A stretch of 50,436 nt of DNA, taken from a virus. A model generated the notes under the pieces. It was not told where the DNA came from. It saw nothing but the letters and a program-made list of their open reading frames with translations, and did no database searches. Location of the stretch: positions 1-50,436 of IMG/VR virus record IMGVR_UViG_3300006871_000011; one strand, given 5' to 3'. The translations under genes and the position numbers were made by a program. Of the stretch, positions 5,676 through 41,136 are shown piece after piece (position 1 is the first letter of the stretch; each line of letters starts with the position of its first letter).

Positions 5676-6385
5676 GCCTGTCCCGTCTGAAGCGAATCGA
5701 CGCCGCGATCCAGAAGCACGGGCTCGGGCGCAAAGCCTCGCCCGACGCGAACGACCATCGCTACCTGCTGCGGGCCATCACGCCCCCGCCGGTGGTGCTC
5801 ACGCGCTACTGGTCGGCCGGCGTCGTGCTCAATCAGGGGCAGACCTCCGAGTGCGTCGCGAACGCATGGACCGGGTTCCTGATGGCCGCGCCGCTCAAGG
5901 ACACGCTCTCCGCCCTCGGCGGCGTCGCCTTCGTGCACCAGCTCTACACCGAGGCGCAGGAGCGCGACGAGTGGCCGGGCACGGGCTACGACGGCACCTC
6001 GGTGCGCGGCGGCGTCAAGGCGCTCGTCGACCGCCACCGCGTCGGCGAGTTCCGCTGGGCGTTCGACGCGGAGACCTGCCGGCAGTGGGTGCTCACGCGC
6101 GGGCCGCTCGTGTTCGGCACGGACTGGTATGAGGAGATGTTCGTGCCCGATGCGCGGGCGTACCTGCACGACAAGGGCACCGTGGCCGGCGGCCATGCGT
6201 ATCTCGTCGTGGGCTTCTCGCAAAAGCGCTGGGCGTTCCGTATCGTCAACTCGTGGGGGCGCGAGTGGGCCGGCTCCGAGGGCGGCCGCGCGTGGCTCCC
6301 GTTCGATGTCGCCGACCGGCTGGTGCAGGCACAGGGCGAAGCCTGCTCGGCGATCGAGCTGACTCCACCTCCGGTGATCCCGTGA
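5672..6385 (+). CDS. Papain-like (C1 family) cysteine peptidase
   Basis: A 237-aa protein with a full papain-type catalytic set: oxyanion Gln in NQGQTSEC (Q55), nucleophile Cys61, His175 in VAGGHAYLVV and Asn193 in IVNSWG. There is no secretion signal and no obvious long propeptide, only about 50 residues before the active-site Gln. Phage C1-like peptidases are sporadic and their targets unknown. Here it sits in the accessory block before the terminase, not beside the capsid genes, so a role against host proteins is as likely as virion maturation. It starts by ATGA overlap with the zinc-ribbon gene. Confidence 0.85.
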   Translation: MSLSRLKRIDAAIQKHGLGRKASPDANDHRYLLRAITPPPVVLTRYWSAGVVLNQGQTSECVANAWTGFLMAAPLKDTLSALGGVAFVHQLYTEAQERDEWPGTGYDGTSVRGGVKALVDRHRVGEFRWAFDAETCRQWVLTRGPLVFGTDWYEEMFVPDARAYLHDKGTVAGGHAYLVVGFSQKRWAFRIVNSWGREWAGSEGGRAWLPFDVADRLVQAQGEACSAIELTPPPVIP

Positions 6386-10436: not shown

Positions 10437-10623
10437 ACCGCCCCAGCCGAATCGCTGGATCTGGTGGGCGCTCAACGGGGAGTTCTTCGTGAGCCGCATT
10501 GACCCGCAGACGGGGCGCAACATCGTGGTGAGGGTGACAGACCGGCAGGAGGGCGAGCGCCTCTTGAGGGACCGCGCCCGCGCCTTGGCGGAGGCACTGA
10601 ATCGCGTGTACGCAGGTGCATGA
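10423..10623 (+). CDS. Small hypothetical protein upstream of terL
   Basis: A 66-aa protein from ATG 10423 (a GTG at 10420 is also in frame). It overlaps the previous gene by 14 bases and terL by ATGA. It begins with a Trp-rich strand segment (NRWIWWALNGEFFVSRIDPQ) and ends in an Arg-rich helix (RLLRDRARALAEALNRVYAG). Function unknown. Confidence 0.6.
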   Translation: MADHEPPQPNRWIWWALNGEFFVSRIDPQTGRNIVVRVTDRQEGERLLRDRARALAEALNRVYAGA

Positions 10624-13180: not shown

Positions 13181-13590
13181 TGGCGATTCCAACGACGGTG
13201 ATCGACCGCGTGCGGCTCAAGAAGCCGCTCTCCCCGATGCAGGAGGTCGTGGCGGTGCTCATTGGCATCGGCATGTCGCCGCCCGAGATCGCGCGCGAGC
13301 TGCACCTGTCGGTCTACTCGGTGAAGACGTACATCCAGCTCGCGGCGCGGAAGATCCCCGGCGATCTCCCCTCGTGCGCGCGGATCGCGGCGTGGGTGCG
13401 GGGCGCGCCGAAGGAGGTGCTCACGGGCTACAGCCTGAAGGCGATCATCATGGACCAAGGGCGCGAAGCGATGCGGCGGTTCACCGCGCTGGCGGAGCAG
13501 AAGGTGGATCGTGAGGCGGCGGAACGTTTGACGGGACAAGGAGAACCATTAGTTTCCGCGACATCGGGCACGGAGGACTCCGCAGCATGA
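13180..13590 (+). CDS. LuxR/GerE-type helix-turn-helix protein; possible small terminase
   Basis: A 136-aa protein. Residues 17-60 (LSPMQEVVAVLIGIGMSPPE, then IARELHLSVYSVKTYI) match the GerE/LuxR helix-turn-helix. The rest is helical and polar. Small terminase subunits are short DNA-binding helix-turn-helix proteins usually beside terL and portal, and this gene sits between them, so that role is the best guess; a transcription factor is the alternative. ATGA overlap with the portal gene. Confidence 0.65.
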   Translation: MAIPTTVIDRVRLKKPLSPMQEVVAVLIGIGMSPPEIARELHLSVYSVKTYIQLAARKIPGDLPSCARIAAWVRGAPKEVLTGYSLKAIIMDQGREAMRRFTALAEQKVDREAAERLTGQGEPLVSATSGTEDSAA

Positions 13591-15980
13591 CGGCACCGGC
13601 GGTGATTACCAGCGACAAGACCACGTCATCGGGCGGGGCCTCGTCGTGGTCCCGCTTCGTGCCGCTCCGCGAGAGCCCCACCGACGACGAGCCGCAGTAC
13701 GACGGCGCGCGCCTGACGCTCGTCCGGGCCGGCTGGTCGGCCTTCGACGATCTCGTCAGGCAACAGAACCGGCAGGTCGAGGAGAACGTCCGAATGCTGT
13801 GCGGGCTCCAGCACTCGGTCTACCATCCGATCACGGGGCGCTGGATCGACTCGACGGAGTGGATGCCCGAGGCTGAGCGCCGCTGGCGTGCGCGCCCGGT
13901 CATCAACGTCATCAAGCCGTGGGCGATCATTACGCAGGCGCGGATGACGGAGAACCAGCCGATCGTCACCTTCGTGCCCGGCCCCGATCGCGCCGACGCC
14001 GAGCTGGCCGAGATCCTCGACATCGCCATGAAGACGGCGTGGTTCGAGGCGAACATGGAGGACGTCCACGACCGGCTGTGCTCGTGGCTCCTCGCCGCCG
14101 GCCGGGGCCATCTCCTCACCCGCATCAACCCCCATAAGGGCCAGATGCGCCAGTGGACCGGGCAGGGGATGCTCCCGATGGTCGACCTCTACGACCAGCC
14201 GATCTCGGATCAGGACGGCGGGCAGGGGCAGTACCCGATGCAGGAGGGCGTGCCGTACGGTCCCGATGGGCAGCCGCGCGCCAACTGGCGGGTCTCCGAT
14301 CCCAGCGACCCCTCGCGCGGGGAGATGGTGCCCACGGGCGCGCCGCACGAGACACCGGTCGGCGCGATCGAGTGCGACGTGCTCGCCCCGATGCAGGTGC
14401 GCGGGAGCTGGGGGCCGCAGCCGTGGTACCAGAAGCGCCGGCACTTCATCCGCAGCTTCCACGCGCCCGAGGAAGTCTACGACATGTTCGGCATCGAGGT
14501 CGAGCCGACCGTGCGTGGCGGGCAGGTCTCGGACGTCGGGGAGCTGGAGCGGCTCCTCTACGGCACCGGCTTCTACGGCGCGGTCGAGGGGATGATCGAC
14601 CGTTGGGGCGCGGCCTCGAACGTGGATGGCTACGTCGAGCTAACGCAGCTCTGGGAAGCGCCGTGCGCCCGTCCGGGGATGGAGAAGACGCCGGACCAGC
14701 CCGGCGGGCGCTGGCTCGTCGCCACCCCGGAGCGCGTGCTGCGGGACGGGCCTCGGCCGGCAGCGTTCCCCTACACCTCGCCGCTCAACACCTTCGAGTT
14801 CGTCCGCCTCGCCGGGCGGCCGGGGGGCTCGACGATTCAGGAGGATTTGAACCCGATCCAGCGCGCGATCAACGACGACCACGGCCGCATCCGCGATCAC
14901 GTCGCGCTCAACGCCAACCCGCAGACGATGATCGACGCGCAGTCGGGGCTCAAGCCCGGGCAGCGCTCGAACATGCCGGGGCAGAACTACGTCGTGAACC
15001 GCCGGCCCGGCGTGCAGGCGATCGAGCATGTGCAGCCGCCGAAGCTCTCCGACGACGTCTACAAGCACATGGAGCAGATGGTCGCCTTCTTCAACCAGAT
15101 CGGCTTCACGGCAGGGGCGAACGATCCGGGGACGCCCGGCGATTCGGGCGAGAAGGTGAAGGAGGTGCGGTTCAACACGGACCGCTTCCTCGGGCCGACC
15201 ATGCGCCGGATGGCCGGCGAGTACGGGCGGCTCTACGAGAACTGGATGGCCTTCATGCCGCTGATCTGGGACATGGAGACCACGCTCCACTACGCGGGCG
15301 ACGACAACATCGCGCGCACGGTGGTGATCTACCCCGAGCTGTGGAAGGAAGGGAAGTGCAACGTCCGCCCCGACGTCGAGTCGATGCTCCCCGAAGGGCG
15401 CGGCGAGAAGCAGGAGAAGGCGCTCACGTTCTACGGCATGGGGCTGTTCGGCGATCCGACCCTGCCGGCCGCGAAGCGGAAGTTCTGGGAGGTGGCGAAC
15501 ATGCCGCATCTCTCACGCTTCGCCAAACCCGGCGGCGTCCACACGACCACAGCCGAGCAGGAGAACGGGAAGTTGGTGCTCGGCACCCCGGCGCAGATGA
15601 TCCCCGTCTACGAGTGGTACGACGACGAGGCGCATCTCGCGGTGCACGAGAACTTCATGGCGAGCCCCGAGTTCCTGAAGATCGACCCCCAGCTCCAAGA
15701 CGCCTTCGCCATGCACCGGCAGGCGCACCTGTTCAATCAGTCCCAGAAGGCCGCCAAAGCCGCCGCGCAGATGAATGCGCTCGCAGGCATGGGCGTCCCC
15801 GGCGGAGCCGCTGGCGGGGGACGCCCGGGCGGCGGCGGGGGACCTCCATCGGCGAACGGTAAGAAGCCAGCAGGTGATACGTCCGGGCGACCGATTCCGC
15901 CTACTCCTCCGACGACACCCGTGCCGGGTGGCGTCATGCCCACCGTTGCCGGCGCGACCGCGCCCGGCCTCACTCAGTAG
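13587..15980 (+). CDS. Portal protein
   Basis: A 797-aa protein in the size range of P22-like portals. Recognisable portal features are an N-terminal helical start, SRINPHKG-like clip region near 180, the segment ALNANPQTMIDAQSGLKPGQ (about 437-456), VEHVQPPKLSDDVYKHMEQM-like crown helices, and SGEKVKEVRFNTDRFLGPTM (about 520-540). The C-terminal 70 residues are Gly/Pro-rich and disordered. It forms the dodecameric DNA channel and docks the terminase; followed by scaffold and capsid genes as usual. Confidence 0.85.
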   Translation: MTAPAVITSDKTTSSGGASSWSRFVPLRESPTDDEPQYDGARLTLVRAGWSAFDDLVRQQNRQVEENVRMLCGLQHSVYHPITGRWIDSTEWMPEAERRWRARPVINVIKPWAIITQARMTENQPIVTFVPGPDRADAELAEILDIAMKTAWFEANMEDVHDRLCSWLLAAGRGHLLTRINPHKGQMRQWTGQGMLPMVDLYDQPISDQDGGQGQYPMQEGVPYGPDGQPRANWRVSDPSDPSRGEMVPTGAPHETPVGAIECDVLAPMQVRGSWGPQPWYQKRRHFIRSFHAPEEVYDMFGIEVEPTVRGGQVSDVGELERLLYGTGFYGAVEGMIDRWGAASNVDGYVELTQLWEAPCARPGMEKTPDQPGGRWLVATPERVLRDGPRPAAFPYTSPLNTFEFVRLAGRPGGSTIQEDLNPIQRAINDDHGRIRDHVALNANPQTMIDAQSGLKPGQRSNMPGQNYVVNRRPGVQAIEHVQPPKLSDDVYKHMEQMVAFFNQIGFTAGANDPGTPGDSGEKVKEVRFNTDRFLGPTMRRMAGEYGRLYENWMAFMPLIWDMETTLHYAGDDNIARTVVIYPELWKEGKCNVRPDVESMLPEGRGEKQEKALTFYGMGLFGDPTLPAAKRKFWEVANMPHLSRFAKPGGVHTTTAEQENGKLVLGTPAQMIPVYEWYDDEAHLAVHENFMASPEFLKIDPQLQDAFAMHRQAHLFNQSQKAAKAAAQMNALAGMGVPGGAAGGGRPGGGGGPPSANGKKPAGDTSGRPIPPTPPTTPVPGGVMPTVAGATAPGLTQ

Positions 15981-17381: not shown

Positions 17382-18824
17382 ATGACACGGTTTGTTCGCT
17401 CGCGGCTGTTCTACCTCGGCCTCTTGGTCGGGGCGTCCCTCGCCGCGATGATCGTCGGGGCACACCCGGCGCTCGCCATGCCCTTCGTTGCGGGCGTGAC
17501 GACGACGACGACGAGCCTCGACACGCTCATGAAGATCATCTACTCGGACCCGCTGATCCGCGACATCGTGGTCGAGTCCGAGCTGATGGACATGTTCAAA
17601 ACGGACTTCAACATCCAGACGGACGAGACGACCGGCGGCAAGTACGTCTCGATGGCGCATTACCTTCGCCTCGCGGGCGCGGCCGGTGCCCGAGCCGAGA
17701 ACGACTACATCCCGGTCCCGCAGGTCGTGCGCGCGATCGAGTCGCGCATCTTCCTGAAGAAGATCATGGGCGTGGTCGAGATGTCCGGCGACGTGATGGA
17801 GAAGGTGGTCGGCGACGAGGGCAGCTTCATCAACTACATGGAGCGCGCCCTCCCCGACACGAAGGAGCGGGTCGTGGCCGAGATGGACCGCATGTACATC
17901 GGCTTCGGCGCAGGCATCAAAGCGCGCGTGAAGGTGGGCTGGGTCGCCGGTGGCCGCGTGGTCACGGCGCTCACGGTCGATCGCGCGTTAGGCGTCACGG
18001 GGTATGAGGATGCGTGGCTCCAGTTCCAAGAGGGCGAGACGATCGTCTTCTCCGCCACGGCAGCCGGTGCGGTCATCAAAAACGCCGGCACCACGCAGGC
18101 GGCCTCGGTCGACAACATCGACGAGACGGCCGGCGCGCTCTCGACGACGATGGACCCGGCCCTTCAGGCGGCCATCGCCGACTCCGACTACATCTTCGCC
18201 GGTGACCAAGCGGGCGTCAGCTCGCAGAACGGCGGCGTTGATCGCGAGCTGGCGGGGCTCTTGGCGGCCGTGGACAACGGCTCCATCCTCGCCACGTACA
18301 ACAACGTCACGCGCGCGGGCAACCGGCAGTTCAACGCCCGTGTCATCGACGCTTCGGTCGCGCCGTACAACGGCAACCTGACCGAAGACCTGCTGATCAT
18401 CACGGACGCGGTGACGTCGACGTCGACCACGTCCAAGATCAACGCGCTCGTCATGTCCCCCCACGCGCCGATCGGCTACTGGCAGGACATGAAGCAGGAT
18501 CGCAACCTGAACGACCCGCGCAACTACACGGGCGGGAAGGGCTCGCTGTCGATCCTGTTAGGCGACCGCACCATTCCCTTCCGGACGGCGCGCAAGCTCC
18601 CGCCGCAGGTGGCCTTCGGGCTCAACACCTCGACGTGGCGGCGCTTCACCCTCGGGACGTGGCAGTGGATCGCGCGCGGCGGGTCGATCTGGAACCTCGT
18701 GACCGACAACGTCGGCCGCAAAGATGCGTACTTCGCCTTCGGCAAGCTGTACGAGCAGCTCGCGTGCATCATGCCCCGGCGCAATTTCCGCATCGAGGGA
18801 CTGACGCGCAAGTTCAACTACTGA
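17382..18824 (+). CDS. Major capsid protein, with Sec-type signal-peptide-like leader
   Basis: A 480-aa coat protein by position (after portal and scaffold) and by features such as LMKIIYSDPLIRDIVVESEL, IESRIFLKKIMGVVEM, and the C-terminal QWIARGGSIWNL...GRKDAYFAFGKLYEQ. The ATG at 17382 has an AGGAG nine bases upstream. The first 32 residues are a textbook signal peptide: basic start MTRFVRSR, hydrophobic LFYLGLLVGASLAAMIVGA, then HPALA before Met33. An alternative ATG at 17478 would start exactly after this leader but has no good ribosome site. HK97-fold coat proteins normally have no such leader; it may be a cleaved scaffold-like delta segment. Confidence 0.85.
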   Translation: MTRFVRSRLFYLGLLVGASLAAMIVGAHPALAMPFVAGVTTTTTSLDTLMKIIYSDPLIRDIVVESELMDMFKTDFNIQTDETTGGKYVSMAHYLRLAGAAGARAENDYIPVPQVVRAIESRIFLKKIMGVVEMSGDVMEKVVGDEGSFINYMERALPDTKERVVAEMDRMYIGFGAGIKARVKVGWVAGGRVVTALTVDRALGVTGYEDAWLQFQEGETIVFSATAAGAVIKNAGTTQAASVDNIDETAGALSTTMDPALQAAIADSDYIFAGDQAGVSSQNGGVDRELAGLLAAVDNGSILATYNNVTRAGNRQFNARVIDASVAPYNGNLTEDLLIITDAVTSTSTTSKINALVMSPHAPIGYWQDMKQDRNLNDPRNYTGGKGSLSILLGDRTIPFRTARKLPPQVAFGLNTSTWRRFTLGTWQWIARGGSIWNLVTDNVGRKDAYFAFGKLYEQLACIMPRRNFRIEGLTRKFNY

Positions 18825-22954: not shown

Positions 22955-23111
22955 AGACCGGCCCGTGACGACGTGGGCTCGGGCGGACGACATCGAGAAC
23001 ATCACAGTGGCCGGAGATCCCGTCACTGCGCCGCCGGCACCGGCGGCTCCATCCGTCAACGTGACCCGACAGGGCAACCCACCACCGACGATATGGAACA
23101 CCGCAACATAA
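22947..23111 (+). CDS. 54-aa protein upstream of the tailspike
   Basis: A short frame from ATG 22947, preceded by a GGAGG-containing stretch, to TAA 23109-23111. It overlaps the previous gene by 8 bases and the tailspike gene by 19. The peptide opens MAEDRPVTTWARADDIENIT and ends in a Pro/Ala-rich tail. Tight overlaps and a good ribosome site support translation; no function can be read. Confidence 0.6.
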   Translation: MAEDRPVTTWARADDIENITVAGDPVTAPPAPAAPSVNVTRQGNPPPTIWNTAT

Positions 23112-25654
23112 CGGGCCTCGATGCCCTGCATCCCTTCAGCATTCGTCAGGCGATCGACCCCGGCGCGATCGGCGCGGACAAGGGCTGGTACGACACCTCG
23201 GTCTCGCCGCCACGGCTCCGGATTCGTAACGCGACCAACACCGGCTGGGAAGATCCGCAGGCGCAAGGCTCCGCGATGCGGGCCTTCGCGACCACGGCCG
23301 CGCGCGATGCGTTCTACACCGCGCCGGTCGGCGAGGAGCTGGCGTGGAATCGGCAGACCGGCTTCATCCAGCGGCGCGATGCCGTCTTGGCGCGGTGGCT
23401 GAACGATGGCGTCACCGGCGGGGCGGGTCCGCTCGTGCGTGCCTCCTCGAAGGGCGCATGGGGCGACGGCGCACATAACGATCGTCAGGCACTGATCGAC
23501 ATGGACACGGCCGCCGCGACCGTGGGACGTGGCGAAGTGAACGCGGGGCTCTACCGCGTCGACGCCAACATGTCGTTCAGCAATCATCTCACCCTCACCG
23601 ACAACGCAGTCCTTCAGCCGAACGTCGGCGTCAATATCGACATCAACGGCGAGTTCGACGCCAGCCTCCAGAAGCACTTCGATCTCTCGTTAGGTGGGAC
23701 GGTCAAATTCACCAACAACAAGACCGTCACGGTCTTCTACCTCGAACATTGGGGCGTGGTCGGCGATGGCGTCACGGATGACACGGCGGCGTTCAACGCC
23801 TGCCTTGCGGCGATCCCGAACAACGCGGTGCTCCGCCCACTGCCTCGGCGGAAGTTCCTCTGTGGAACGCTCGTGCTCTCCGGGCGCTTCCAAGTCGAGA
23901 TTGACAGCGGCCTGAAGGCGGGCTACGACGACGGCGTGCCCGAGATCCTCTACAACGGGGCGGCTGGCGGCTTCCCGTTCGTGCTCGATCGCTGCCGCAA
24001 GTGCCGCGTGACGGGGCTCAACATCACGATCAATCGCGTCGGCCACGAGGCGGGCACGGGGTTCCTGCTGAGCGGCTACGGCACGCGGGACTATAACAAC
24101 GTCGACACGGGGATCAATCTCGGCATCGGGTCGATCTGCTCGATCACGTACTGCAAGGTGTTCAACGCCTTCAACACCGACTGTCAGGCGGTCGACATCT
24201 GTCGTTATGCCACCATCCAGAATCAGGAGTACCATCACGTCGAGCACTGCCTGCTGTTCAACGGCGACAGCTTCCTGCGCTTCGCCTTCATCTCGGTGGG
24301 CGCGGGCTCGGTGAACTTCACGGTGACCGGCGTGACGACGCTCACGGCCGGCGACGTGGGGAAGCGCATCCGCATTCTCAAGGCGGGCGCGGTCGCGGGC
24401 GGCGTGAACCGCGCGCTCGACACGACGATCGCCACAGTCACCGACGCCACGCACGGCACGCTCACGGTCGCGGCAGTCGCGGCAGTCGTGGGTATTCAAT
24501 CGCTGATCGGCGAGAACAAGGGCTCGGGCATCCGCATCGGCCCCAACTCGAACGCGAAGCGACAGACGATCCGCGACAACCAATGCAACTCATGGTTCGC
24601 CGGCATCAACTGCTTGAACGGTGGCTTCCAAGCCTACGAGAACTCGCTCTCGGTCTGCGAGAACGCCATCCGCATCTCAGGCGCGGCGGAGCCGACGTTC
24701 GACGTCGGCACCAACTCGGAGCTGTGCCTCCGGCAAGTCTGGATCGACGGCATGGGCGGCGCAGGCGGCATGGCAACACACAAGACCTTCGGCGGGCGCT
24801 TCGACCCCGAGTGGTGCATGGATGCCTTCCTCGCGAACGACGCCAACACCGGGCCGCTCGTGATCGAGATGTGCAGCTTCGAGAATCGCATCACGGACGG
24901 AGCGTATCTGTTCCGGGCGCAGCAGTTCTGGGGCATCAAGGTCAAGGGCATCATCTTCGGCACAGGTGGCGACTTCCCCGACAACCGCATGTGGGACCCG
25001 CTCAACGCCCGCACCGGCGAATGGCAGGAGACGTACGGCGGCGGGCCGTTCGTGGATTGGCGCAGCCACCGCTTCCAAATGGGGCTGTCGGTCGAGGCGT
25101 ATCAGATCGACATGGCGGGGCTCGGGCCGCTCGTGCTGTTTCGCCGCACGAACGCCGGGGAGGTGCAGGCGCAGGCGGTGGCGGCCAAATCCATCTCGCT
25201 GCCGTGGCTCGGGGGCGCGGGCGAGCAGGTGTCATGGCAGGGCGGCATGAACGAGCTGGGCCGCCATCCGGGCGGGGTGCCCTACTACGACTTCGACTCG
25301 CCCGGCATCGTGATCTCGACGGGGCACACACTGGCGGCGGAGACGGTGCACTACCGCGTCGGGCCGGCGCAGCTCACCGGGGGCTCGGGGCTCCAGAAGG
25401 ACGTGGGGCTCCGGATTCACCCGCTGCTCATTGCCGGCGTGGGGCTGGCGGACGCGGTCGATCAGCAGGGACCAAACGACCATGTCCGGCTCAATGGGCT
25501 CGTGAAGATCGGCGCGAAGAACGCCGCGCCGGTCGATGCCGACATCGCGAACAGCCAGATCACCTTCTACCTCGACGAAGCGGGCTCGAACCTCAAGGTG
25601 CGTATCCGCCAGAGCGGCGGCGGCTACAAGACCTCCACGATCGCGATGGTCTGA
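23093..25654 (+). CDS. Tailspike with pectate-lyase-fold beta-helix
   Basis: An 853-aa protein. The start is set at ATG 23093 (MEHRNITGLDALHPF); the frame is open upstream only as non-coding-looking Arg/Gly-rich sequence. Residues 220-245 hold the Pectate_lyase_3 entry motif WGVVGDGVTDDTAAFNACLA, followed by a long right-handed beta-helix (repeated strands to about residue 680) and a C-terminal strand-rich domain. Proteins of this kind bind and often cleave host capsule or O-antigen. The N-terminal 200 residues would attach it to the tail. Confidence 0.85.
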   Translation: MEHRNITGLDALHPFSIRQAIDPGAIGADKGWYDTSVSPPRLRIRNATNTGWEDPQAQGSAMRAFATTAARDAFYTAPVGEELAWNRQTGFIQRRDAVLARWLNDGVTGGAGPLVRASSKGAWGDGAHNDRQALIDMDTAAATVGRGEVNAGLYRVDANMSFSNHLTLTDNAVLQPNVGVNIDINGEFDASLQKHFDLSLGGTVKFTNNKTVTVFYLEHWGVVGDGVTDDTAAFNACLAAIPNNAVLRPLPRRKFLCGTLVLSGRFQVEIDSGLKAGYDDGVPEILYNGAAGGFPFVLDRCRKCRVTGLNITINRVGHEAGTGFLLSGYGTRDYNNVDTGINLGIGSICSITYCKVFNAFNTDCQAVDICRYATIQNQEYHHVEHCLLFNGDSFLRFAFISVGAGSVNFTVTGVTTLTAGDVGKRIRILKAGAVAGGVNRALDTTIATVTDATHGTLTVAAVAAVVGIQSLIGENKGSGIRIGPNSNAKRQTIRDNQCNSWFAGINCLNGGFQAYENSLSVCENAIRISGAAEPTFDVGTNSELCLRQVWIDGMGGAGGMATHKTFGGRFDPEWCMDAFLANDANTGPLVIEMCSFENRITDGAYLFRAQQFWGIKVKGIIFGTGGDFPDNRMWDPLNARTGEWQETYGGGPFVDWRSHRFQMGLSVEAYQIDMAGLGPLVLFRRTNAGEVQAQAVAAKSISLPWLGGAGEQVSWQGGMNELGRHPGGVPYYDFDSPGIVISTGHTLAAETVHYRVGPAQLTGGSGLQKDVGLRIHPLLIAGVGLADAVDQQGPNDHVRLNGLVKIGAKNAAPVDADIANSQITFYLDEAGSNLKVRIRQSGGGYKTSTIAMV

Positions 25655-28439: not shown

Positions 28440-29084
28440 ATGACAATGCCAGCGATGACGTGGGAGCAGATGCGGCGCTTCATGCGGCCGAAGACACCCG
28501 TCGATCCTTACTCGTTAGGTGGCTACACGACGGGCGTGGATGCCACGGGCGCGGCGGCGGGTGGGCGCGGTGAGCAGGCGCAGGACGCCTATATCTCGCG
28601 CGCGTCGAGCTTCGACGCCTCGAAGTCGCTGAACGATTGGGCGCGCGGCGCGTACGCCAACGTCTCGGCCGGGCTCGATCGCCGGCTGCGGGATCTCTCC
28701 GGCGCGGCCGTGGGATCGGGGCGACTCAACACCGGCTTCTTCGACGAGGATCAGGGGCAGCTCATTCGCGACACGCAGGCGGACTTCACGAATAACCTGA
28801 GCCAGCAGGCGTTAGGCGCGGCCGAACTCCAGCAGCGCAACGACACGTCGCTAGGGGCGTACGGCGAGCGGCAGACGGAGTTCGCCACCGACATCGCGCA
28901 GTCTCGGCGGGAGGAGATGATTAACGCCGCGCGGGAGCAGGCGGAGCGCGCGCGTCGCCGGAAGCGGGGGATCGGAAGCGCGATCGGCGGCGCGCTCGGC
29001 GCGGCCGGCGGCTTCCTGTTAGGCGGCCCGGCCGGCGCGGCCACGGGCTGGAACGTCGGGCGCTCGGTCGCCGGGAGCTTCTGA
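28440..29084 (+). CDS. Internal virion protein candidate with glycine-zipper C-terminus
   Basis: A 214-aa protein. The first 150 residues are helical and polar; residues 177-214 form a Gly/Ala-rich hydrophobic hairpin (GIGSAIGGALGAAGGFLLGG, then PAGAATGWNVG), a glycine zipper able to insert in membranes. Small proteins of this kind precede larger ejection proteins in podoviruses and help form the channel for DNA. Its stop overlaps the next ATG by one base. Confidence 0.6.
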   Translation: MTMPAMTWEQMRRFMRPKTPVDPYSLGGYTTGVDATGAAAGGRGEQAQDAYISRASSFDASKSLNDWARGAYANVSAGLDRRLRDLSGAAVGSGRLNTGFFDEDQGQLIRDTQADFTNNLSQQALGAAELQQRNDTSLGAYGERQTEFATDIAQSRREEMINAAREQAERARRRKRGIGSAIGGALGAAGGFLLGGPAGAATGWNVGRSVAGSF

Positions 29085-30340
29085 TGCCACGCTACTCACT
29101 CAACCTGCGCTCGATCTACGGGCCGGACGAGCCGACCTTCGGCGAATCGTTAAGCGGCGGGATCAGCTCGGCGATCGGCGAGTACCAGCGGAAGAAAGAG
29201 GTGGAGCGGCAAGAGGGCAACGAGATCCGCGCCCGGGGCGGCGTCCCGCTCCCCACCGCGCCCGCGCCGACGCCGGGCCAGCGGGTCCGGGGGATCGCGG
29301 GCGGGTTGAACGATCTGCTCCACGGTCGTCGGCCGGACTTCGGCAACGTGTTCTCGGGGCCGCAGATCGACGGCCGTCAGCGCGACGGCGTGCCCAGCCC
29401 TGCGGTGCCACCCCCGACCACTGGCGCGCTGCCGTACACCCGGGGCGATCCCTACGGGCAGGAACCGTTCGATCCGTTCTATCGGCGGAATGCGTTAGGC
29501 GCGAGCCCCGAGACGGCGGCCGGGCGTATGCCGATGCTTCCGAGCCCGGCCGGTGCTGCGCCCGCGCCGAACGTCGCCGCGCGTGGCGCTCAGCCCTCGG
29601 TGGCCTCGCCTTCAGCGGTCTCGCCATACGTCTACGAGGGCATTCGCGGCCAGCGCTACTCGGTCGACCCGCTCTACGGCGCGCGCGTGCAGGCCGAGGG
29701 GAAGGAGATGGCCGGCCGCGCGCACGAGGAGGAGCAGATCCGCTCGCTCGTCGACGCGGGCATGGACCCCCGCGAGGCGCGGGCGCGTGTGCTCAACAAC
29801 GTTGTCAAGTACGACGACACCTTCGGCCAGCAGCCGCGCACGGCCGGCGGCATGACGTTCGAGCAGCGGAAGCAGCTCCAAGACGAGCGCATCGCCGCGT
29901 CGCGGGCGATCGCGCTGCTCACCTCCTCCGGCCGGCAGAACACGGCGGAGTACCGTCAGGCGCTCCTGCGGATGCGCGAGATCGACCAGCAGCTCCGCGC
30001 GGCCGAGATGCTGGCGCGTGGCACCTCCAGCGAGGCGGGCGCGATCGAGCGCACCATCCCGACCGGCACGAACCGGATCGTCGAGGAGTCCCAGCCGGGC
30101 GGGAAGGAGCGCATCGAGTCGGCGGCCGAACGCGCGGCCGCGCTTCGGCGGCAGGCGGCCGACACCCGCCGGCAGGGCGCGGGGCGTGTGCTGCTCCGGG
30201 GCGCGGGGCGGCGCTCGATCACACAGGCGCAGTACGACCAAGCGATCGCGAAGGGAGCGGATGATGCCACGATCGCCCAGAGCTACGACATCCCGGCATC
30301 CGTCAAGCGGAAGCAGGCTCTCCTCACGCCAAAGCGCTGA
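29084..30340 (+). CDS. Internal virion/ejection protein candidate
   Basis: A 418-aa protein. N-terminal SLNLRSIYGPDEPTFGESLS, a long Pro/Gly-rich disordered middle and helical C-terminal third with many Gln, Arg and Glu (EQRKQLQDERIAASRAIALL; RIESAAERAAALRRQAADTR). It is placed between the glycine-zipper protein and the giant protein, one-base overlaps at both ends, so the three probably act together as internal proteins. No family recognised. Confidence 0.55.
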   Translation: MPRYSLNLRSIYGPDEPTFGESLSGGISSAIGEYQRKKEVERQEGNEIRARGGVPLPTAPAPTPGQRVRGIAGGLNDLLHGRRPDFGNVFSGPQIDGRQRDGVPSPAVPPPTTGALPYTRGDPYGQEPFDPFYRRNALGASPETAAGRMPMLPSPAGAAPAPNVAARGAQPSVASPSAVSPYVYEGIRGQRYSVDPLYGARVQAEGKEMAGRAHEEEQIRSLVDAGMDPREARARVLNNVVKYDDTFGQQPRTAGGMTFEQRKQLQDERIAASRAIALLTSSGRQNTAEYRQALLRMREIDQQLRAAEMLARGTSSEAGAIERTIPTGTNRIVEESQPGGKERIESAAERAAALRRQAADTRRQGAGRVLLRGAGRRSITQAQYDQAIAKGADDATIAQSYDIPASVKRKQALLTPKR

Positions 30341-33300
30341 TGGGCGACCCGCTCGGGCTGTTCACGCAGGACTCCACGCGCCGGAAGCAGCAATCGGCCG
30401 AGAACGACCCGCTGGGGCTCTTTAGCTCACAGGGAGCCCCGGAGGACTTCTCGGACGTTCGGAGCGGCTCCAGCACCGCGCCCGCCCCACGGCGCGGTAT
30501 CGTCACGGGGATTGCCAGCGCGATCGGGGACTTATTCCCCTCCACGAACGAACCCCGGCGGATGATCCCCCCGGTGGACCGCCGCACGCCGGAGCAGAAG
30601 GCGGCGGACGATCTGGCCGAGCGCCGCGCCCTCCAGACCCAGCGGCCCGACGTCACCGGGACGGGCGGCTTCCAGACGCCCGCGACGGTTGCCACGCACG
30701 AGAAGAACGTCGCGGCGATGAAGACGCGGGGCGTGCAGCGCGCGCAGTTCTCGCCCGAGAAGTGGCAGCAGATCGCGGCCGCCGGGGCGGAGTACGCGAA
30801 CCAGCTCCACGCGCAGGGGCGGCACGAGGAAGCGGAGGACATCAACCGCAAATCGTACAACGCTCAGCTCCTCGCGTCGGGTGCGAAGGAAGCCGACACG
30901 CACGGGGCGATCGTCCTCTCGAACCTCCTCGGGATCATTCACGACCCGTACGCCGGGCAGCGGCGGAACATCGCCGAGGCGGAGATGCCGGGCATGGTTG
31001 CGACGCCGGAGGAGCAGACGGCGATGGGGGTGGCGAAGCCGGCGTATCCGGCGCGGCCCTTCTCGATCGGGAAGGACATCGTGGCTCCACTCGCCGGGCA
31101 GGCTCCGGTGCTCATCGCGGGTGGCGCGGCGGGCCGGACGGCCGGCGCGGTCATCGGAGCGGGGCTGGAGCGCGCGGGGGCGGAGACGATCGGGACGGCG
31201 ATCGGCCGGCTGGCGCGTGGCGTCGAGGTGCCGGAGATGCTGGGGCCGCGCGTCCCGGTCTCCTCGATGCGGAATCTCGGGCTCCGCGTGGGCGAGGAGG
31301 CGCGGGCGTTCCGGGCGGCGCTGCCGTCGATGATGGGTCGGGGGGCGACCGAAGGCCAGATCATCATGGGGACGCAGCAGTACCGCATGGCCCGCGAGCA
31401 GGGGGCGACGGTCGAGGACGCGGTGAAGGCGGCGCTCGAAGGGGCGGCACTCAACGTGCCATTCGGCGCGGCGGCGGAGATCGGCCTCGGCGTCGTGGGC
31501 CGCGCGGCCGGCGTCGGCTTCGATCCCGTGGGCCGCCTCGCGAGCCGCATCCGTCAGCACATCGCCGGCCGGCCGGAGCCCGAGCTGGGGCTCGACGTCG
31601 CGGGGGAGGCGGACGTCCCTCCCGCCGGCCCAGCACCGGAGACGCTTCACCGCACGATCGGCGAGGGGCTCGATCAGCTCCTCGCGCAACGGCAGATCGA
31701 GGAGCGCGGCACCTCGGCGGTCGAGCGGCCGCCCTCGCGCGTGCGTACGCGCGCGCCGGAAGAACCCGTCCCGCTCCGGACGGCCGCCGAGATTGCGATG
31801 GAGCGGACGCGGCCGGCCGAGGAGGCGAACGCGGTCACGCAGATGGAGCGGCAGCGCCGTTTCGCTGAAGCCGCGCGGGTACAGGCGGAGCAGATGGCGA
31901 ACGAGCCGGACCTCCAGCTCGAACTGGCGGCGCAGCAGCGGCCGGGCGAAGTGCAGGGACCGAAGACGCTGGGCGAGACACTCGCGCAGGCGGGCGAGGA
32001 GCGTGCGGCCGGCGAGCCGCTGGCGACCGAGTACCACGACGCGATCAACAACTACGTCGACGCGCTCGCGGCCGTGAAGGACCGGCCCAAGGACAGCCCG
32101 CCGACGATGAAGCAGCAGGTCGCGCTCGCCCGGGCGCGACAGGCGCTCAACGACGCGCGGCAGCGGTACGGCGCGCAGGTCGGGGCGTCGGCGGTGCTGG
32201 CGCTCGCGGCGTCGAACGACGACCTCACCGACGACGAGAAGAAGCTGGTGGGGCTCGGCGCGCTGGCGATCGGCTCGCTCCGGATTGTGAAGGAGATCCC
32301 GGCGGAGACGCGGGTGAGGCTGCGCGATCACATCGCGCGCAACTTCCCGTACGCCGAGACGCCGCACGATTGGGTGCAGATTGCGAAGGACACGGGCTTC
32401 GACCTCGGCGGCCACGAAGGGGAGCAGCAGTTCTTCCGCGCGCTGCAAGATCAGATGCACCCGGAGACCGACAAGGTCTCGCCCGAGCAGGTCCAGCGGA
32501 TCTTGGCCGACCTCCCGGGCGAGCAGCGGCCGCCGGGCACCCAGCCAATCCCCGGGAAGTTCGTCTCCCGCTTGCGTCAGGCGATCGAGGCGCTTCCCGG
32601 GAAGGCGTGGGACCAGCCCCGGCCGGCGGCCGATTGGATCGGCAAGCTCAAGGGGTTGAGCACCTTCTCGAAGAAAGAGCTGGAGCTGATGCTACCCCAG
32701 CTCGAAGACGCGGCCGCGCGCAAGCAGAAGTTGGCGCGCGACGACGTGATGGCGCTGGCGGATGCCACGCTGCCGAAGATCGAGCGCGTCACGTTAGGCG
32801 GGCCACCGGAGGCGGCCGCCGCGCCGGAGCCTCCGACCGCGCCGGCCGGCCGGATTCACGACATCGACGACGTCTTCGAGCAGGCGCGCGACGAGCGGGA
32901 TCGTCCCTATCTCGACGAGCAGCTCTCGCTCCGGCAGGAGCGGATCAGGGAGCTGGAGCAGGACGTCGAGCACGATCAGCAGCGCGCCTACGAGGACATG
33001 GAGGAGGCGTCGGGCCGGCAGAGTGAGAAGCTCCACGATCTGTACCGGTTGGTGGAGGATGCGGGGCTCACGCGCGACGTGCTCGATCCGGCACTGCAAT
33101 ACATCGGCGAGTATGGCGAGTCGGCCGACTCCGACGCGGCGTTCCAGAAAATCTGGGAAGACCTTTCGACGAGCCGCGACCCCGAGGAGGTGCTCCGCGA
33201 GGAGGGCTACAGGATCGAGGAGGTCCCCGCTGCCGAGCCGGATCACTACTACAGCTTCACACACATCGGCCCGCGCGGCGAGAGCAAGCAGAGCCGATTC

Positions 33301-36300
33301 TACCATGTCAGCGGAGAGACGCAGGAGCACATCCGCGAGCGCGTGGCGGAGGACTACGGCGCGGAAGCGGCGCGCACGCTGGAGTTCTCCGAGAAGCCGG
33401 GCGATCCCACCTACCGGGTGCTGGGTCCGGACGGCCGGGTGGTCGCGGAGGATCTCTCCAGTCGCGAGGATGCGGCCAGCGAGGCGGTCAACAACGAGGC
33501 GCTCGACGACAGCGATAATGAGCTGCACGAGAACGTGCAGTACGCGCTCTCACGCTACATCGACGCGACCGCCGTCTATCAGGAGGCGGAGAGCCGGCAC
33601 TACTCGCTAACCGAGGAGCCGGAGTACGCCCTCTCGCACATCTACGAGGAGATCGAGAAGCTCCGCGACGAGACTGGGCGGATCGACCGCGCGAGGGACA
33701 CGCTACCGGACGCGCCGGAGGAGGAGCCGGAGCCGCTCGCGTTGCCGGAGACCACGGAAGCGCCGGCCGTCGATCCGTACGCGCTGCCCGTCGAGCCCAC
33801 CCCCAAGGGGCGAGCAGAGTTCTCCGGGTTCCAGCGCCTCGGCGGCGGCAAGAATTACCGCGAGCTGCTCAACGTGCTGGAGAACCCCCCAGAGGAGTCG
33901 TACGAGGGCGGCCATTACAGCAAGCGGGCCGGCTACGTCATGGACCCCCGACCCAACCTCGCGGGGCATGTCCGCGCCGAGGACCACCTCGTCTACGAGA
34001 CCCCGGGCCTCACGGGCGAGCAGGTCGAGATAGACCCCAACGACTCGGCCGTGGTGAAGGCGGCCAAGCAGGTCATCGCCGACACGCGGGTGGAGCGCAA
34101 TGAGAACTACCGGCAGCTCGGCGAGATCGTCCGCAAACTGGAGGCGATGCCCGCCTCGGAGACCGACCCGAACAACCCGAGCCCGGAGGCGGCGCGGCTC
34201 GCCTCGGACTACCGGAGTATCGTCACCGACATCACCGGGCTCTCGCACCGGGAGGAGGTAAACGCCGACAAGCTCCGGTCGGCGTGGGAGCTGAAGCACG
34301 GGCGCGAGGTGCCGTCGCGCACGATCGCCACGATGCTCGAATCGCAGTCGGATTGGGCGCAGGAGGCAAACGAGTTCGGCATCCGCCGGCCCGTGGCGGA
34401 GACCGAGGAGGCGCTGCGCCCGCTTCGTGAGGCGGCGCAGCGGGCGATGGAGCAGACCGACCGCGCGGTCGACGCCGAGGCGAAGGCGAAGGACCGATTT
34501 ACCGACGCGCGGCAGACCTTGGCCGACCTCGCAGACGCCGAATACCCGAAGCTACAGAACGAGTGGGCCGAGATGGAGCGGACCGGCCGGGCAACCGCCT
34601 ACGGCCCGCCGAGCTGGCGGCGGATTTTGGACCCCGATGACGCGCCGGACTTCGAGCTGCTGCGTACCATGCGTCCCGAGTGGGGCTCAGCCCTCGACGA
34701 GCTGAAGGCCGCAGCGGAGCACGCGAACGAGACGCAGATCGCAGCACAGTCCGCGTACGACGAACAGGTGCGGACCCGGGGTGAGGTGGACCGGGCGGAG
34801 AGGGCAGCGAAGAAGTCCGTGCCGCCGTCGCCGCTTCTCGAAACGCGCGCCGCATTCTCGCTCAACGCCGCGCGCTTCCTGCTCGATGCGGCGGAGCGCG
34901 GGCACGATCATATCGCATGGTCGGACGCGGCCAACCGCGTGAAGGTTGCGTCCTTGCCCATCAAAGCGGCGAAGCTCGTGTACGACGACATCACCAAGAG
35001 CGCCGTCGTGCGAATGCTCGGGAACCTCGGGTTCAAGAACGTGCCCGTGGATCGTGTCTTCATCCAAGGCTACGGCCACTGGCATGTCGAGCTAACGCCC
35101 GCGATGCGCTCGGCGATCCGCAAGGCTGGGCTCCCGATCCTGAGTGCGATGGCGATGACCGGGCTCTCCGCCGAGGAGGCGAAGGCGCAAGGCACTGAGG
35201 GTGCGCCGGCCTCGCGCTCGCTCTACGGCACCTTGGCGGGTGGCCTCGTCGCGGGGGCGGCGCTCGCGACGCTCCTCACCAGCAAGCGGATGCGGCGGCT
35301 TGTGAAGGAGAACCGCGAGCTGGGGACGGCGATCATGCGCGACGACCTGAGCGGGCTCGCGAACAAGCGGGCGTTCACCGAGGCGCGCTCGGTCATCGAC
35401 GCGGACCCGAGCATGGCGTGGGCGGCGTTCGACGCCGCGCAGTTCAAGCGGGTCAACGACGTCGCCGGCCACGATGCCGGGGACAAGGCGATCCAGCGCT
35501 TCGGCCACGCCATCGCCGCTGCGGCGAAGGAGACGGGCGTCGACCTCCGCGCGTTCCGGCCGGGTGGCGACGAGTTCGCGGTCGCGGTCCCGAAGGAACG
35601 AGCGCAGGAGTTCATCGACGCCGTCGAGAAGCACTCGAAGCACACGGTCTCGGGGATCGAGACCCAGCTCCACGGCATGGCGGCCGACACCTACGAGCAG
35701 GCGGATCAGCTCCTCAACCAGCGGAAGGACGACCTCCGCTCGCTCGGGCTCCTACAGGAGCGCCGGGCCAGCCGCTACCACGGGGCGACCGAGGCGGAGG
35801 TCGCGGGGCAGGAGGCGACCAACGCCGAGTTCGACGCGGCGCTCTCGAAGCTCAAGGCACAGGAGCCGCCGGCCACGGCCGAGGAGGCAAAGATCGTCTC
35901 CGACGCCATCGCCAAGGCGGAGCTGCCGAAGGATCTCCCGCCGGGGCTCCTCCTCCATGCCAACCCGATCGGCCCGGCGCTGCGCCAACTCTCGCGCTAC
36001 CCGGCGGCGGCGGCGCTCATGGGCGTCGGCGCGGTCATGGGCGAGTCGGACAACGAGAACATCAAGCGGGCGTCCAAGCCCACCATCGCCCTCGGTGCGC
36101 TCTCGATGATCGGGAGCCACCGGCTCAAGGCGGCGAAGGACGTCTTCGGCGGCGGCGTGCTCAACCTTCTCACGCGGACCGAGGCGGGGAAGCGGATGGT
36201 CGAGTTCTTCAACCCCGGCGCGCTCCTCTCCCCCGAAGCGAAGCAGGCGTTGGAGCAGTACCGACAGACGCAGGCGTACGGCCGCTCGGTCGCGCTCGAA

Positions 36301-38646
36301 CACGGCCGCGCCGCCGAGCGCCTCGGCCCGGCGGGGAACCGGGCCGTCTCCGACGTGATCGAGAACGAGCAGTGGGAAGACCCGAACCAGTTCACCCCGC
36401 AGCAGATGCAGGACGTCCTTACGGTCGCTGCCGGCATCGAGCGCGAGGTGCGGAAGCTGACCGACGCCAAGGTGCAGCACGGCGTCCTCGAACCGACGCA
36501 GGCGATCCCCGGGTACCTCAAGCGCAAGTACGCGCAGTTCGACGCGCTCGACGCGGTGGCCGACCACCGGGCCGGTGGCGTGACGCAGGGGAAGACGATC
36601 GGGGCGGCCACCAAGAGTCGCGTGCTCGACGAGCCCATTCGCGCGGCCGAGGTGGAGCTGGCCGACGCGCGAGCGTCCGGCGATCCGGCGCGGGTCAAGG
36701 ACGCCGAGGACGCGCTCACCGAGGCGCAGCTCGTCCAGCAGCAGCAGCGGGTCACGCTCGGCGAGATCCGTGAGGCGGGCTACCGGGCGTCGGCGACGTT
36801 CGACCAAGGGTGGCACGACGTCGCGGCGGCCAAGCTGCACGAGCAGCTTCGGGCGCAACCCGGTACGGTACACCCGGGGTACGACAGTGAGCTGTCCAAC
36901 TTCCTCGCCGCGCGCTCGCTCTACAAGGCGGCGAAGACGACCGCCGACCGCGACGCGGCGAAGGCGTTGATGGACGACTCCTTCGTCAAGCTCAAAGAGC
37001 TGAGCGACCGCTTCAAGGCCAAGGGCGGCGAGTGGCGGACGCTGCCCGACACGCGGAGCTACGGCGTGCTGCGCGGGATGCCGGTCACGCGGGCGGTGTA
37101 CAACGAGATCGCGCCGGCCTTCGATCCGGGGAAGTGGGATCAGTTCCTCAACTTCTGGAAGCAGGCGAAGACGATCTTCAACGTCGGCACCTCGGTCGGC
37201 AACGTCGCCTCGAACGTCGCCTTCGCGCACATGGAGGGGATGCACCTGTTCGAGCAGCCGCTGTGGCTCAAGCGCGCGCTCTCCGATCTCAAGGCGTACG
37301 GGCCGGCGACCCGGCACCTCTCCGAGACCGGCGTGCTCGAAGCCTCGGCGACGTTCAGCCCGAACGAGGTGCGGAACCCGCGCGCCCAGCGGAGCGAGGA
37401 GGGGTTAGGCGAGCTGCTCCAGACGACGCGCCCCGAGACGCAGCGCGTCCTCCGCGAGCGCGGCATCACCGAGCAGTCGGTCGCCGCGCGCAAGCGGCGC
37501 GGGACGGCCACGCGCGCAGCGGTTGGCGCGGCCGTGGGCGCGGGGCTCCTCGCCGACAACGAGAACCCGGAAGACGCCGCGCTCGGGGCGACGTTAGGCG
37601 GGCTGGCCGGGGCGGCGCTCAATCCGCGCGTCCGGGCGTTCATCCGGCGCGGTTACGCGAACGAGGACAACCTGTTTCGCATCGCGCTGTACATGAAGCA
37701 GGTCGCGGAGGGGATGCCCAAGGACGCGGCGGCCGTCAACGCCAAGCGCGCGTTAGGCGACATGGCCGCGCCGCAGTCGCCGGCCACGCAGATGATCCGC
37801 CGCACGGTCTCACCGTTCTTCCTCTACCCGCTGCGGGCAGTGCCGCGCTTCGCGTCCCAGATGATCGACCACCCGTGGCGCTACGCGACGCTGATGGGCG
37901 CGTTCGCCGCGCTCGATCTCTACGCGCGCAAGCAGGTCGGGCCGGTCGAGGAGCGCGACATCGCGCCGCAGGACCGCCGCGACAACTTCGGCTACTTCCT
38001 CCCCGGCTTCACCCAGCTCCCGTTCATGAACGAGCGGGGCGAGAAGGCGAACGCCGACATGGCGCGCTGGACGCCGCTCTCCTCGATGACGTCCTCCGCG
38101 CCCCCGGGCACCACGGGCGGGGCGATCTCGGATCAGTTCCCGGCATTCCTCCAGCCGAGCGGTCCGCTGCTCGACATCGGCGCGCGGGCCGTGGCGAACG
38201 CCGATCCGTTCAGCGGCAAGCCGGTCGTCAAGAAAGACTACCCGTTAGGCGAGAACATCGCGGGGCTTCTGCACCAAGCGGCCGAGGTGGCCGCGCCCTC
38301 GATGCTCGCCTTCCACCGGGAGCGCTTGCAGACCGACATCAACAACCGCGATTGGGACAAGTTCAAGAACGACGTGTTAGGCCCCACGGGAATGCGGCCC
38401 CGGTTCACGCGGCCGGGAGCACAGGTCCAGCGCGCCGTGTATCAATTAGAGGATGACCTCACCGCGATGAAGCGGGAGTTCAATCAGGCGATGATCGCCA
38501 ACAAGAATCCCGAGCACGCGAAGGAGATCGTGGACACGTACCTGCACCGCGTCTCGTCCGCGCTCTCGCACTTCAGCGATCGGATGGGGCCACCGCCGGC
38601 CGACGTCGTGCGCCGGGCGATGGACACGCAAGTTACGCCACCCTAA
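30340..38646 (+). CDS. Giant polyvalent virion protein with LPD and membrane-linked GGDEF domain
   Basis: A 2768-aa protein, by far the largest here. The N-terminus has DPLGLF twice (residues 3-8, 23-28). Hydrophobic Ala/Gly segments lie near 255-290. Residues about 1150-1600 match the large-polyvalent-protein domain of phage giant proteins: GGGKNYRELL (1168), ESQSDWAQE (1334) and LNAARFLLDAAERGHDHIAW (1508). Next comes a likely membrane helix (about 1631-1650, TLAGGLVAGAALATLL) followed by SKRMRRLVKENRELG, and a GGDEF domain at about 1665-1790: DDLSGLANKRAF, FDAAQFKRVND, GHDAGDKA, RPGGDEF (GGDEF at 1742-1746). A second hydrophobic segment follows near 1886. The C-terminal 800 residues are helical and end at stop 38644-38646. 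Such proteins are usually injected with the DNA. The cyclase would make c-di-GMP or a related dinucleotide; activity is unproven. Confidence 0.85.
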   Translation: MGDPLGLFTQDSTRRKQQSAENDPLGLFSSQGAPEDFSDVRSGSSTAPAPRRGIVTGIASAIGDLFPSTNEPRRMIPPVDRRTPEQKAADDLAERRALQTQRPDVTGTGGFQTPATVATHEKNVAAMKTRGVQRAQFSPEKWQQIAAAGAEYANQLHAQGRHEEAEDINRKSYNAQLLASGAKEADTHGAIVLSNLLGIIHDPYAGQRRNIAEAEMPGMVATPEEQTAMGVAKPAYPARPFSIGKDIVAPLAGQAPVLIAGGAAGRTAGAVIGAGLERAGAETIGTAIGRLARGVEVPEMLGPRVPVSSMRNLGLRVGEEARAFRAALPSMMGRGATEGQIIMGTQQYRMAREQGATVEDAVKAALEGAALNVPFGAAAEIGLGVVGRAAGVGFDPVGRLASRIRQHIAGRPEPELGLDVAGEADVPPAGPAPETLHRTIGEGLDQLLAQRQIEERGTSAVERPPSRVRTRAPEEPVPLRTAAEIAMERTRPAEEANAVTQMERQRRFAEAARVQAEQMANEPDLQLELAAQQRPGEVQGPKTLGETLAQAGEERAAGEPLATEYHDAINNYVDALAAVKDRPKDSPPTMKQQVALARARQALNDARQRYGAQVGASAVLALAASNDDLTDDEKKLVGLGALAIGSLRIVKEIPAETRVRLRDHIARNFPYAETPHDWVQIAKDTGFDLGGHEGEQQFFRALQDQMHPETDKVSPEQVQRILADLPGEQRPPGTQPIPGKFVSRLRQAIEALPGKAWDQPRPAADWIGKLKGLSTFSKKELELMLPQLEDAAARKQKLARDDVMALADATLPKIERVTLGGPPEAAAAPEPPTAPAGRIHDIDDVFEQARDERDRPYLDEQLSLRQERIRELEQDVEHDQQRAYEDMEEASGRQSEKLHDLYRLVEDAGLTRDVLDPALQYIGEYGESADSDAAFQKIWEDLSTSRDPEEVLREEGYRIEEVPAAEPDHYYSFTHIGPRGESKQSRFYHVSGETQEHIRERVAEDYGAEAARTLEFSEKPGDPTYRVLGPDGRVVAEDLSSREDAASEAVNNEALDDSDNELHENVQYALSRYIDATAVYQEAESRHYSLTEEPEYALSHIYEEIEKLRDETGRIDRARDTLPDAPEEEPEPLALPETTEAPAVDPYALPVEPTPKGRAEFSGFQRLGGGKNYRELLNVLENPPEESYEGGHYSKRAGYVMDPRPNLAGHVRAEDHLVYETPGLTGEQVEIDPNDSAVVKAAKQVIADTRVERNENYRQLGEIVRKLEAMPASETDPNNPSPEAARLASDYRSIVTDITGLSHREEVNADKLRSAWELKHGREVPSRTIATMLESQSDWAQEANEFGIRRPVAETEEALRPLREAAQRAMEQTDRAVDAEAKAKDRFTDARQTLADLADAEYPKLQNEWAEMERTGRATAYGPPSWRRILDPDDAPDFELLRTMRPEWGSALDELKAAAEHANETQIAAQSAYDEQVRTRGEVDRAERAAKKSVPPSPLLETRAAFSLNAARFLLDAAERGHDHIAWSDAANRVKVASLPIKAAKLVYDDITKSAVVRMLGNLGFKNVPVDRVFIQGYGHWHVELTPAMRSAIRKAGLPILSAMAMTGLSAEEAKAQGTEGAPASRSLYGTLAGGLVAGAALATLLTSKRMRRLVKENRELGTAIMRDDLSGLANKRAFTEARSVIDADPSMAWAAFDAAQFKRVNDVAGHDAGDKAIQRFGHAIAAAAKETGVDLRAFRPGGDEFAVAVPKERAQEFIDAVEKHSKHTVSGIETQLHGMAADTYEQADQLLNQRKDDLRSLGLLQERRASRYHGATEAEVAGQEATNAEFDAALSKLKAQEPPATAEEAKIVSDAIAKAELPKDLPPGLLLHANPIGPALRQLSRYPAAAALMGVGAVMGESDNENIKRASKPTIALGALSMIGSHRLKAAKDVFGGGVLNLLTRTEAGKRMVEFFNPGALLSPEAKQALEQYRQTQAYGRSVALEHGRAAERLGPAGNRAVSDVIENEQWEDPNQFTPQQMQDVLTVAAGIEREVRKLTDAKVQHGVLEPTQAIPGYLKRKYAQFDALDAVADHRAGGVTQGKTIGAATKSRVLDEPIRAAEVELADARASGDPARVKDAEDALTEAQLVQQQQRVTLGEIREAGYRASATFDQGWHDVAAAKLHEQLRAQPGTVHPGYDSELSNFLAARSLYKAAKTTADRDAAKALMDDSFVKLKELSDRFKAKGGEWRTLPDTRSYGVLRGMPVTRAVYNEIAPAFDPGKWDQFLNFWKQAKTIFNVGTSVGNVASNVAFAHMEGMHLFEQPLWLKRALSDLKAYGPATRHLSETGVLEASATFSPNEVRNPRAQRSEEGLGELLQTTRPETQRVLRERGITEQSVAARKRRGTATRAAVGAAVGAGLLADNENPEDAALGATLGGLAGAALNPRVRAFIRRGYANEDNLFRIALYMKQVAEGMPKDAAAVNAKRALGDMAAPQSPATQMIRRTVSPFFLYPLRAVPRFASQMIDHPWRYATLMGAFAALDLYARKQVGPVEERDIAPQDRRDNFGYFLPGFTQLPFMNERGEKANADMARWTPLSSMTSSAPPGTTGGAISDQFPAFLQPSGPLLDIGARAVANADPFSGKPVVKKDYPLGENIAGLLHQAAEVAAPSMLAFHRERLQTDINNRDWDKFKNDVLGPTGMRPRFTRPGAQVQRAVYQLEDDLTAMKREFNQAMIANKNPEHAKEIVDTYLHRVSSALSHFSDRMGPPPADVVRRAMDTQVTPP

Positions 38647-41135: not shown

Positions 41136-41136
41136 C

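Follow-up and report, generated by a model that had tools for sequence, protein, structure and literature searches.

Podovirus ejection proteins form a small, medium and large set (229, 471 and 609 aa in P22; 196, 747 and 1318 aa in T7), the largest of which inserts into the inner membrane with one domain in the cytoplasm, and those of T7 and P22 show little sequence similarity even to each other (PMC8954989). Iyer et al. (2017) described phage 'polyvalent' proteins, encoded near virion genes, and stated that a few of them hold a GGDEF domain, which may serve cyclic-nucleotide signalling on invasion (PMC5512222). GGDEF domains are also annotated as standalone proteins in Yuavirus and Vojvodinavirus. 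A tested phage-ejected cyclase was not found in the open-access literature searched. Here we describe a GGDEF (diguanylate cyclase) domain embedded in a 2768-aa protein, hereafter the giant, encoded in the window, i.e. the whole stretch of 50,436 nucleotides analysed, from a phage in an environmental sample (IMG/VR record IMGVR_UViG_3300006871_000011).

Genes in the window follow a podovirus-like order of terminase, portal, head, tail spike, 214-aa protein, 418-aa protein and giant (Table 1), and the portal and head proteins are distant relatives of those of Arthrobacter phage Jasmine. The ATG of the giant shares bases with the stop codon of the preceding gene (TGATG). Outside this block, a phage peptidase homolog lies upstream of the terminase (window 5672–6385; phrog_16701, E 1e-34) and a RecT-like annealing protein downstream of the giant (window 40999–42021; phrog_148, E 6.7e-62).

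Table 1. Features of the window discussed in the text; positions refer to the window, residues to the giant.
Feature	Position	Strand	Basis or remark
Terminase large subunit	10620..12134	+	~32% identical to HMO-2011-type podovirus terminases
Portal protein	13587..15980	+	phrog_156, E 8.9e-18
Major head protein	17382..18824	+	phrog_14242, E 8e-22
Probable tail spike/fibre	22973..25654	+	weak matches to phrog_20911 and phrog_13893
214-aa protein with Gly/Ala-rich hydrophobic C-terminal segment	28440..29084	+	position and size like podovirus gp14/gp7 ejection protein
418-aa protein	29084..30340	+	position and size like P22 gp20 ejection protein
Giant (2768-aa protein) ORF	30340..38646	+	last gene of the structural block
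Divergent 'QSDW' domain, residues 1160–1600, two insertions	33817..35139	+	profile match, alignment
Two hydrophobic segments, residues 1598–1609 and 1630–1646, candidate membrane hairpin	35131..35277	+	sequence reading, Kyte–Doolittle; kept in homolog
Charged helical stalk, residues 1647–1666	35278..35337	+	AlphaFold2 helix 1637–1665; kept in homolog
GGDEF (diguanylate cyclase) domain, residues 1667–1800	35338..35739	+	PF00990, TIGR00254, AlphaFold2, VIA-align to WspR
D1698, corresponding to metal ligand D327 of PleD	35431..35433	+	alignment
GGDEF signature, residues 1742–1746	35563..35577	+	alignment
K1796 and R1800, corresponding to the phosphate-contacting K442 and R446 of PleD	35725..35739	+	alignment; homolog has K1830 and K1834

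Three proteins of 214, 418 and 2768 aa follow the tail genes as a small–medium–large series, the giant bearing hydrophobic segments. In HMO-2011 (164, 502 and 1128 aa), Jasmine (238, 431 and 1803 aa) and ctLwi270, a Podoviridae sp. (1416 aa), the longest proteins likewise close the structural block or lie near its end. By gene position and size, the giant would correspond to the largest ejection protein, in the position of gp16. Like T7 gp16 and P22 gp16 (PMC8954989), it ends the structural block behind a small and a medium gene, is the largest of the three and has candidate membrane-inserting segments; however, it is more than twice as long, shows no detectable sequence similarity to them and carries a cyclase domain in place of a transglycosylase. 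No sequence match to a known ejection protein was obtained for the giant or for the two genes before it (PHROG, Pfam, and profiles against HMO-2011, Jasmine and ctLwi270), and homology of the neighbours to genes of these three phages was rejected, none being found beyond terminase, portal and head protein. Because no sequence similarity backs an ejection role, that role is assigned by position. Delivery with the virion, as proposed in an earlier note on this DNA, is plausible from podovirus ejection-gene synteny and from membership of the polyvalent class, and the term 'virion protein' used there was an assumption that gene position alone supports.

GGDEF is the sole Pfam match in the giant. 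PF00990 covers residues 1667–1765 with 49.4 bits (E 5.7e-13; the curated cut-off of 23.8 is about half this score), a genome-wide search places it at window 35338–35637, and TIGR00254 (NCBIfam) passes its own threshold (46 bits against 37.4). The top NCBIfam cyclase model is that of DgcN/YfiN, which scores far under its equivalog cut-off, and phmmer against PDB sequences returned SadC, PleD and WspR. The ordered motifs reported in the earlier note were all located: DDLSGLANKR from residue 1667, FDAAQFKRVND with the first metal Asp (D1698), GHDAGD ending at D1715, and GGDEF at exactly 1742–1746. The domain is longer than that note had seen, reaching about residue 1800: PHROG families of unknown function on the same stretch extend to residue 1798, and ADQLLNQRKDDLR contains a Lys and an Arg equivalent to the phosphate-contacting residues of PleD. 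A chance match was rejected on the E value together with the structure and the homolog.

IMG/VR yielded only two relatives. One is a 33.7-kb contig with 100% identity in the parts that match; the other, IMGVR_UViG_3300033475_000038 (49.4 kb), encodes a giant of 2765 aa. Identity to the latter is 53% in the GGDEF segment versus 45% overall. In sliding windows, this segment ranks in about the top eighth of the protein (53–55% against a maximum of 62%), placing its conservation in the upper range of the giant, not in its highest part. The homolog keeps D1732, N1740, D1749, GGDE(I) and K1830, its signature reading GGDEI.

Residues were compared in an alignment of the domain with the 45%-identical homolog and with 33 GGDEF sequences taken from bacterial genomes. 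All 12 columns that are invariant in the 33 bacterial cyclases are kept by the giant's domain, N1706 and D1715 among them. We take D327, N335, D344, E370/E371, K442 and R446 of PleD to be equivalent to D1698, N1706, D1715, D1744/E1745, K1796 and R1800, respectively, and the corresponding metal, guanine and phosphate residues are all present. N1706 and D1715 fall at the guanine-contact positions known from PleD, favouring GTP, and the Asp at 1715 in particular favours GTP as the presumptive substrate. Three departures from the bacterial pattern were recorded, because of which activity may be low: at the second Asp of the DxD motif (accessory D329 in PleD) the giant has A1700, whereas all 33 bacterial sequences carry Asp or Asn there and the homolog carries Asp; Asn1793 stands in place of the ALYxAK Tyr; and the domain has a shorter second half. 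In the alignment, giant and homolog both lack the RxxD inhibitory site, which bears out the earlier reading that it is missing from its usual place. This site is lacking in many active cyclases and is optional, not family-defining.

An AlphaFold2 model of the domain, computed from the alignment, reached a mean pLDDT of 95.8. VIA-align gave Z scores of 15–17 against WspR, DgcR, SadC and PleD, including the WspR GGDEF domain 3i5b (Z 16.9, rmsd 2.1 Å over 136 residues), 3ign (Z 16.8) and PleD 1w25 (Z 15.1, 2.2 Å over 134), the last being a superposition that the earlier note had proposed as a check. Within a library of viral models, the best match was A0A516M277, a piece of another long viral protein (1143-residue piece, E 5.1e-10), with standalone phage cyclases ranking after it. 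Model and alignment together describe a complete and, as predicted, well-folded GGDEF domain that keeps its catalytic residues and is conserved in the 45%-identical homolog.

The hydrophobic helix and charged linker said to precede the domain were also recovered: the Kyte–Doolittle value of 1.72 at residues 1630–1646 is the highest peak in the whole giant, and one continuous modelled helix (1637–1665) runs into the GGDEF domain. The outer flanks are basic (RSAIRKAG before, SKRMRRLVKEN after) and the loop between the two hydrophobic segments is acidic; by the positive-inside rule, both ends would be cytoplasmic. From this sequence pattern, residues 1598–1646 likely form a membrane hairpin that places the GGDEF domain in the cytoplasm. 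The domain shares with WspR, SadC, PleD and DgcN/YfiN the fold, the catalytic signature and the helical stalk, with a YfiN-like membrane anchor and linker, but differs from them in having no RxxD, a shorter second half and a setting within a 2768-aa phage protein. Profile, structure and homolog uphold the domain and the membrane-cyclase layout first proposed, with intact metal residues and the missing RxxD.

The GGDEF domain follows a second, divergent domain, for which we coin the name QSDW (consensus VEEIQSDWHQxGRKxGY, ~350 aa). A DNA pattern for QSDW matched at least 120 viral contigs and yielded 119 ORFs, of which 54 are at least 1000 aa long and the longest reaches 4073 aa; another QSDW locus lies at L201:10033–11262, alongside more than 100 other IMG/VR loci. 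In a two-sequence search, a profile of 79 ORFs matched the homolog at 8e-15 and the window giant at 8.6e-8. Further QSDW giants bear LPD38 (large polyvalent protein associated domain 38), SLT transglycosylase or Strawberry-notch helicase domains, and QSDW itself had no Pfam match in the giants scanned. Its AlphaFold2 model (pLDDT 84.2) retrieved almost only GNAT acetyltransferase folds in VIA-align (Z 6–8.6), and Foldseek returned no solved fold significantly like the family; a weak resemblance to GNAT acetyltransferases is suggestive only. By tblastn, no isolated-phage relatives of the QSDW region or of the C-terminal 900 aa were detected.

With 2768 aa, GGDEF plus QSDW, and adjoining head and tail genes, the giant is a member of the polyvalent class. 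It shares with the GGDEF polyvalent proteins already listed (PMC5512222; e.g. Acetonema longum prophage WP_004096050.1) a giant multi-domain phage architecture, an embedded GGDEF domain and predicted co-delivery with DNA, and is set apart by its podovirus-like layout, the hairpin and stalk before GGDEF, the placement of GGDEF after QSDW, and the lack of any detected SNF2, methylase, ART or zincin domain. Pfam likewise gave no match to a cell-wall hydrolase domain or to a polyvalent-associated domain such as LPD38 in the giant. For an LPD38 domain at its C-terminus there was only an insignificant similarity, at residues 2609–2632; in this region (window 38164–38235), NADPFSGKPVVKK recalls, at a like position, the NrDsFTGrPIv of LPD38 giants, without statistical support. 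The earlier claim that no phage ejection protein with this function was known to be described falls because Iyer et al. state that GGDEF occurs in a few polyvalent proteins; the window giant is an unusually clear case of the predicted kind, not the first description of GGDEF in this class.

A second giant, of 3114 aa (IMGVR_UViG_3300036886_000048; L266:7963–17307), has its GGDEF domain at residues 692–832 (43.2 bits), keeps the metal Asp, Asn, Asp and GGDEF, and comes after head closure Hc3 and tail fibre genes (podovirus-like). GGDEF precedes QSDW in this protein whereas it follows QSDW in the window giant, and the two have only GGDEF and QSDW in common, so that the fusion was built more than once. 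A further giant, cut by the contig end, carries DLDDFKRVND...GHAAGD...HRGGDEF after more than 650 residues. The pairing of QSDW with GGDEF is rare, found in one of the 54 long QSDW ORFs from the pattern search, many ORFs being incomplete. Recent capture of an ordinary host cyclase was rejected: the 42 bacterial relatives are separate cyclases in ORFs of 154–1039 aa without the QSDW motif, the best being 41% identical over part of the domain.

We consider the giant to be probably an ejected, membrane-anchored and feedback-insensitive diguanylate cyclase, a polyvalent ejection protein in the gp16 position of a short-tailed phage. It would be packaged, leave the virion with the DNA and insert, like T7 gp16, in the inner membrane, where hairpin 1598–1646 would leave the GGDEF domain on the cytoplasmic side, exposed to GTP immediately within the site of entry. 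For catalysis, two GGDEF domains must face each other, as established for PleD and WspR; several copies in the ejection ring could pair their GGDEF domains via the helical stalk and convert GTP to c-di-GMP, whose level may rise locally on infection because RxxD-mediated product feedback is missing. The phage would presumably gain by altering host signalling early, or else by interfering with defence. The benefit is the least certain step: infected cells may become sessile with a changed envelope, later phages may be excluded, or defence based on nucleotides may be disturbed. More tentatively still, podoviruses may repeatedly have built a feedback-free cyclase into their largest ejection protein, with the entry pore flooding its site with c-di-GMP and reprogramming the host before expression (motility stop, envelope change, rival exclusion, defence interference), a generalization that we would sooner doubt than accept.

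Three other readings bear on the same evidence. The alanine at 1700, the asparagine at 1793, the shortened second half and the GGDEI of the homolog would suit a module that binds GTP or c-di-GMP and serves regulation or assembly in the ejection machine, comparable to degenerate bacterial GGDEF proteins, rather than a working cyclase. However, degenerate GGDEF domains usually lose the signature, whereas giant and homolog keep the metal Asp, GGDE, the Asn/Asp guanine contacts and the Lys, and the separately built 3114-aa giant also has the metal Asp, Asn, Asp and GGDEF; we regard a non-catalytic module as unlikely. Less likely again is action in late expression or lysogeny instead of on ejection, with c-di-GMP changing ahead of lysis or in carrier cells, a role proposed for the standalone cyclases of phages: the standalone GGDEF genes of Yuavirus and Vojvodinavirus belong to temperate phages and LK3 lysogens are hyperbiofilm formers, but here the domain lies behind a membrane hairpin and is fused into a giant that takes the gp16 position and closes the late structural block. 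Hybrid-promiscuous enzymes have Ser at the guanine-contact Asp position, and the presence of D1715 (D344 in PleD) fits GTP-only cyclases; synthesis of another nucleotide (e.g. cyclic AMP-GMP, c-di-AMP, or linear pppGpG/pGpG), by which defence based on cyclic nucleotides would be blocked or decoyed, is the most improbable of the three, even though polyvalent proteins have been predicted to deliver enzymes that interfere with nucleotide signalling in the host (PMC5512222).

If the giant is active as a cyclase and ejected, it would be the first demonstrated virion-delivered second-messenger synthase, as far as the literature found shows, and the phage would alter host signalling before its own genes are read. 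With the window giant, what was predicted in silico in 2017 becomes a concrete domain that can be expressed and whose catalytic residues are defined.

The GGDEF proteins that stand alone in phages (Yuavirus AN14 and Bordetella phages CN1, FP1 and LK3) share with the giant a phage-encoded domain, ~36–42% identical over 89–105 residues. They differ in being encoded by small genes of their own (156 aa in AN14), which lie amid replication and antirestriction genes and outside the virion block. A match in Pseudomonas phage Y1 (OQ572403.1 63230–75775) was set aside: the gene encodes a WspR-like response regulator containing GGDEF, the record is unverified, and the stretch is probably DNA of the host. 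Finally, a near-identical 363-aa standalone protein with DPGLDLPNRR...GGDEL occurs in ~30 prophage-like contigs (L097–L134), mostly from isolate genomes, and is a common prophage GGDEF gene.
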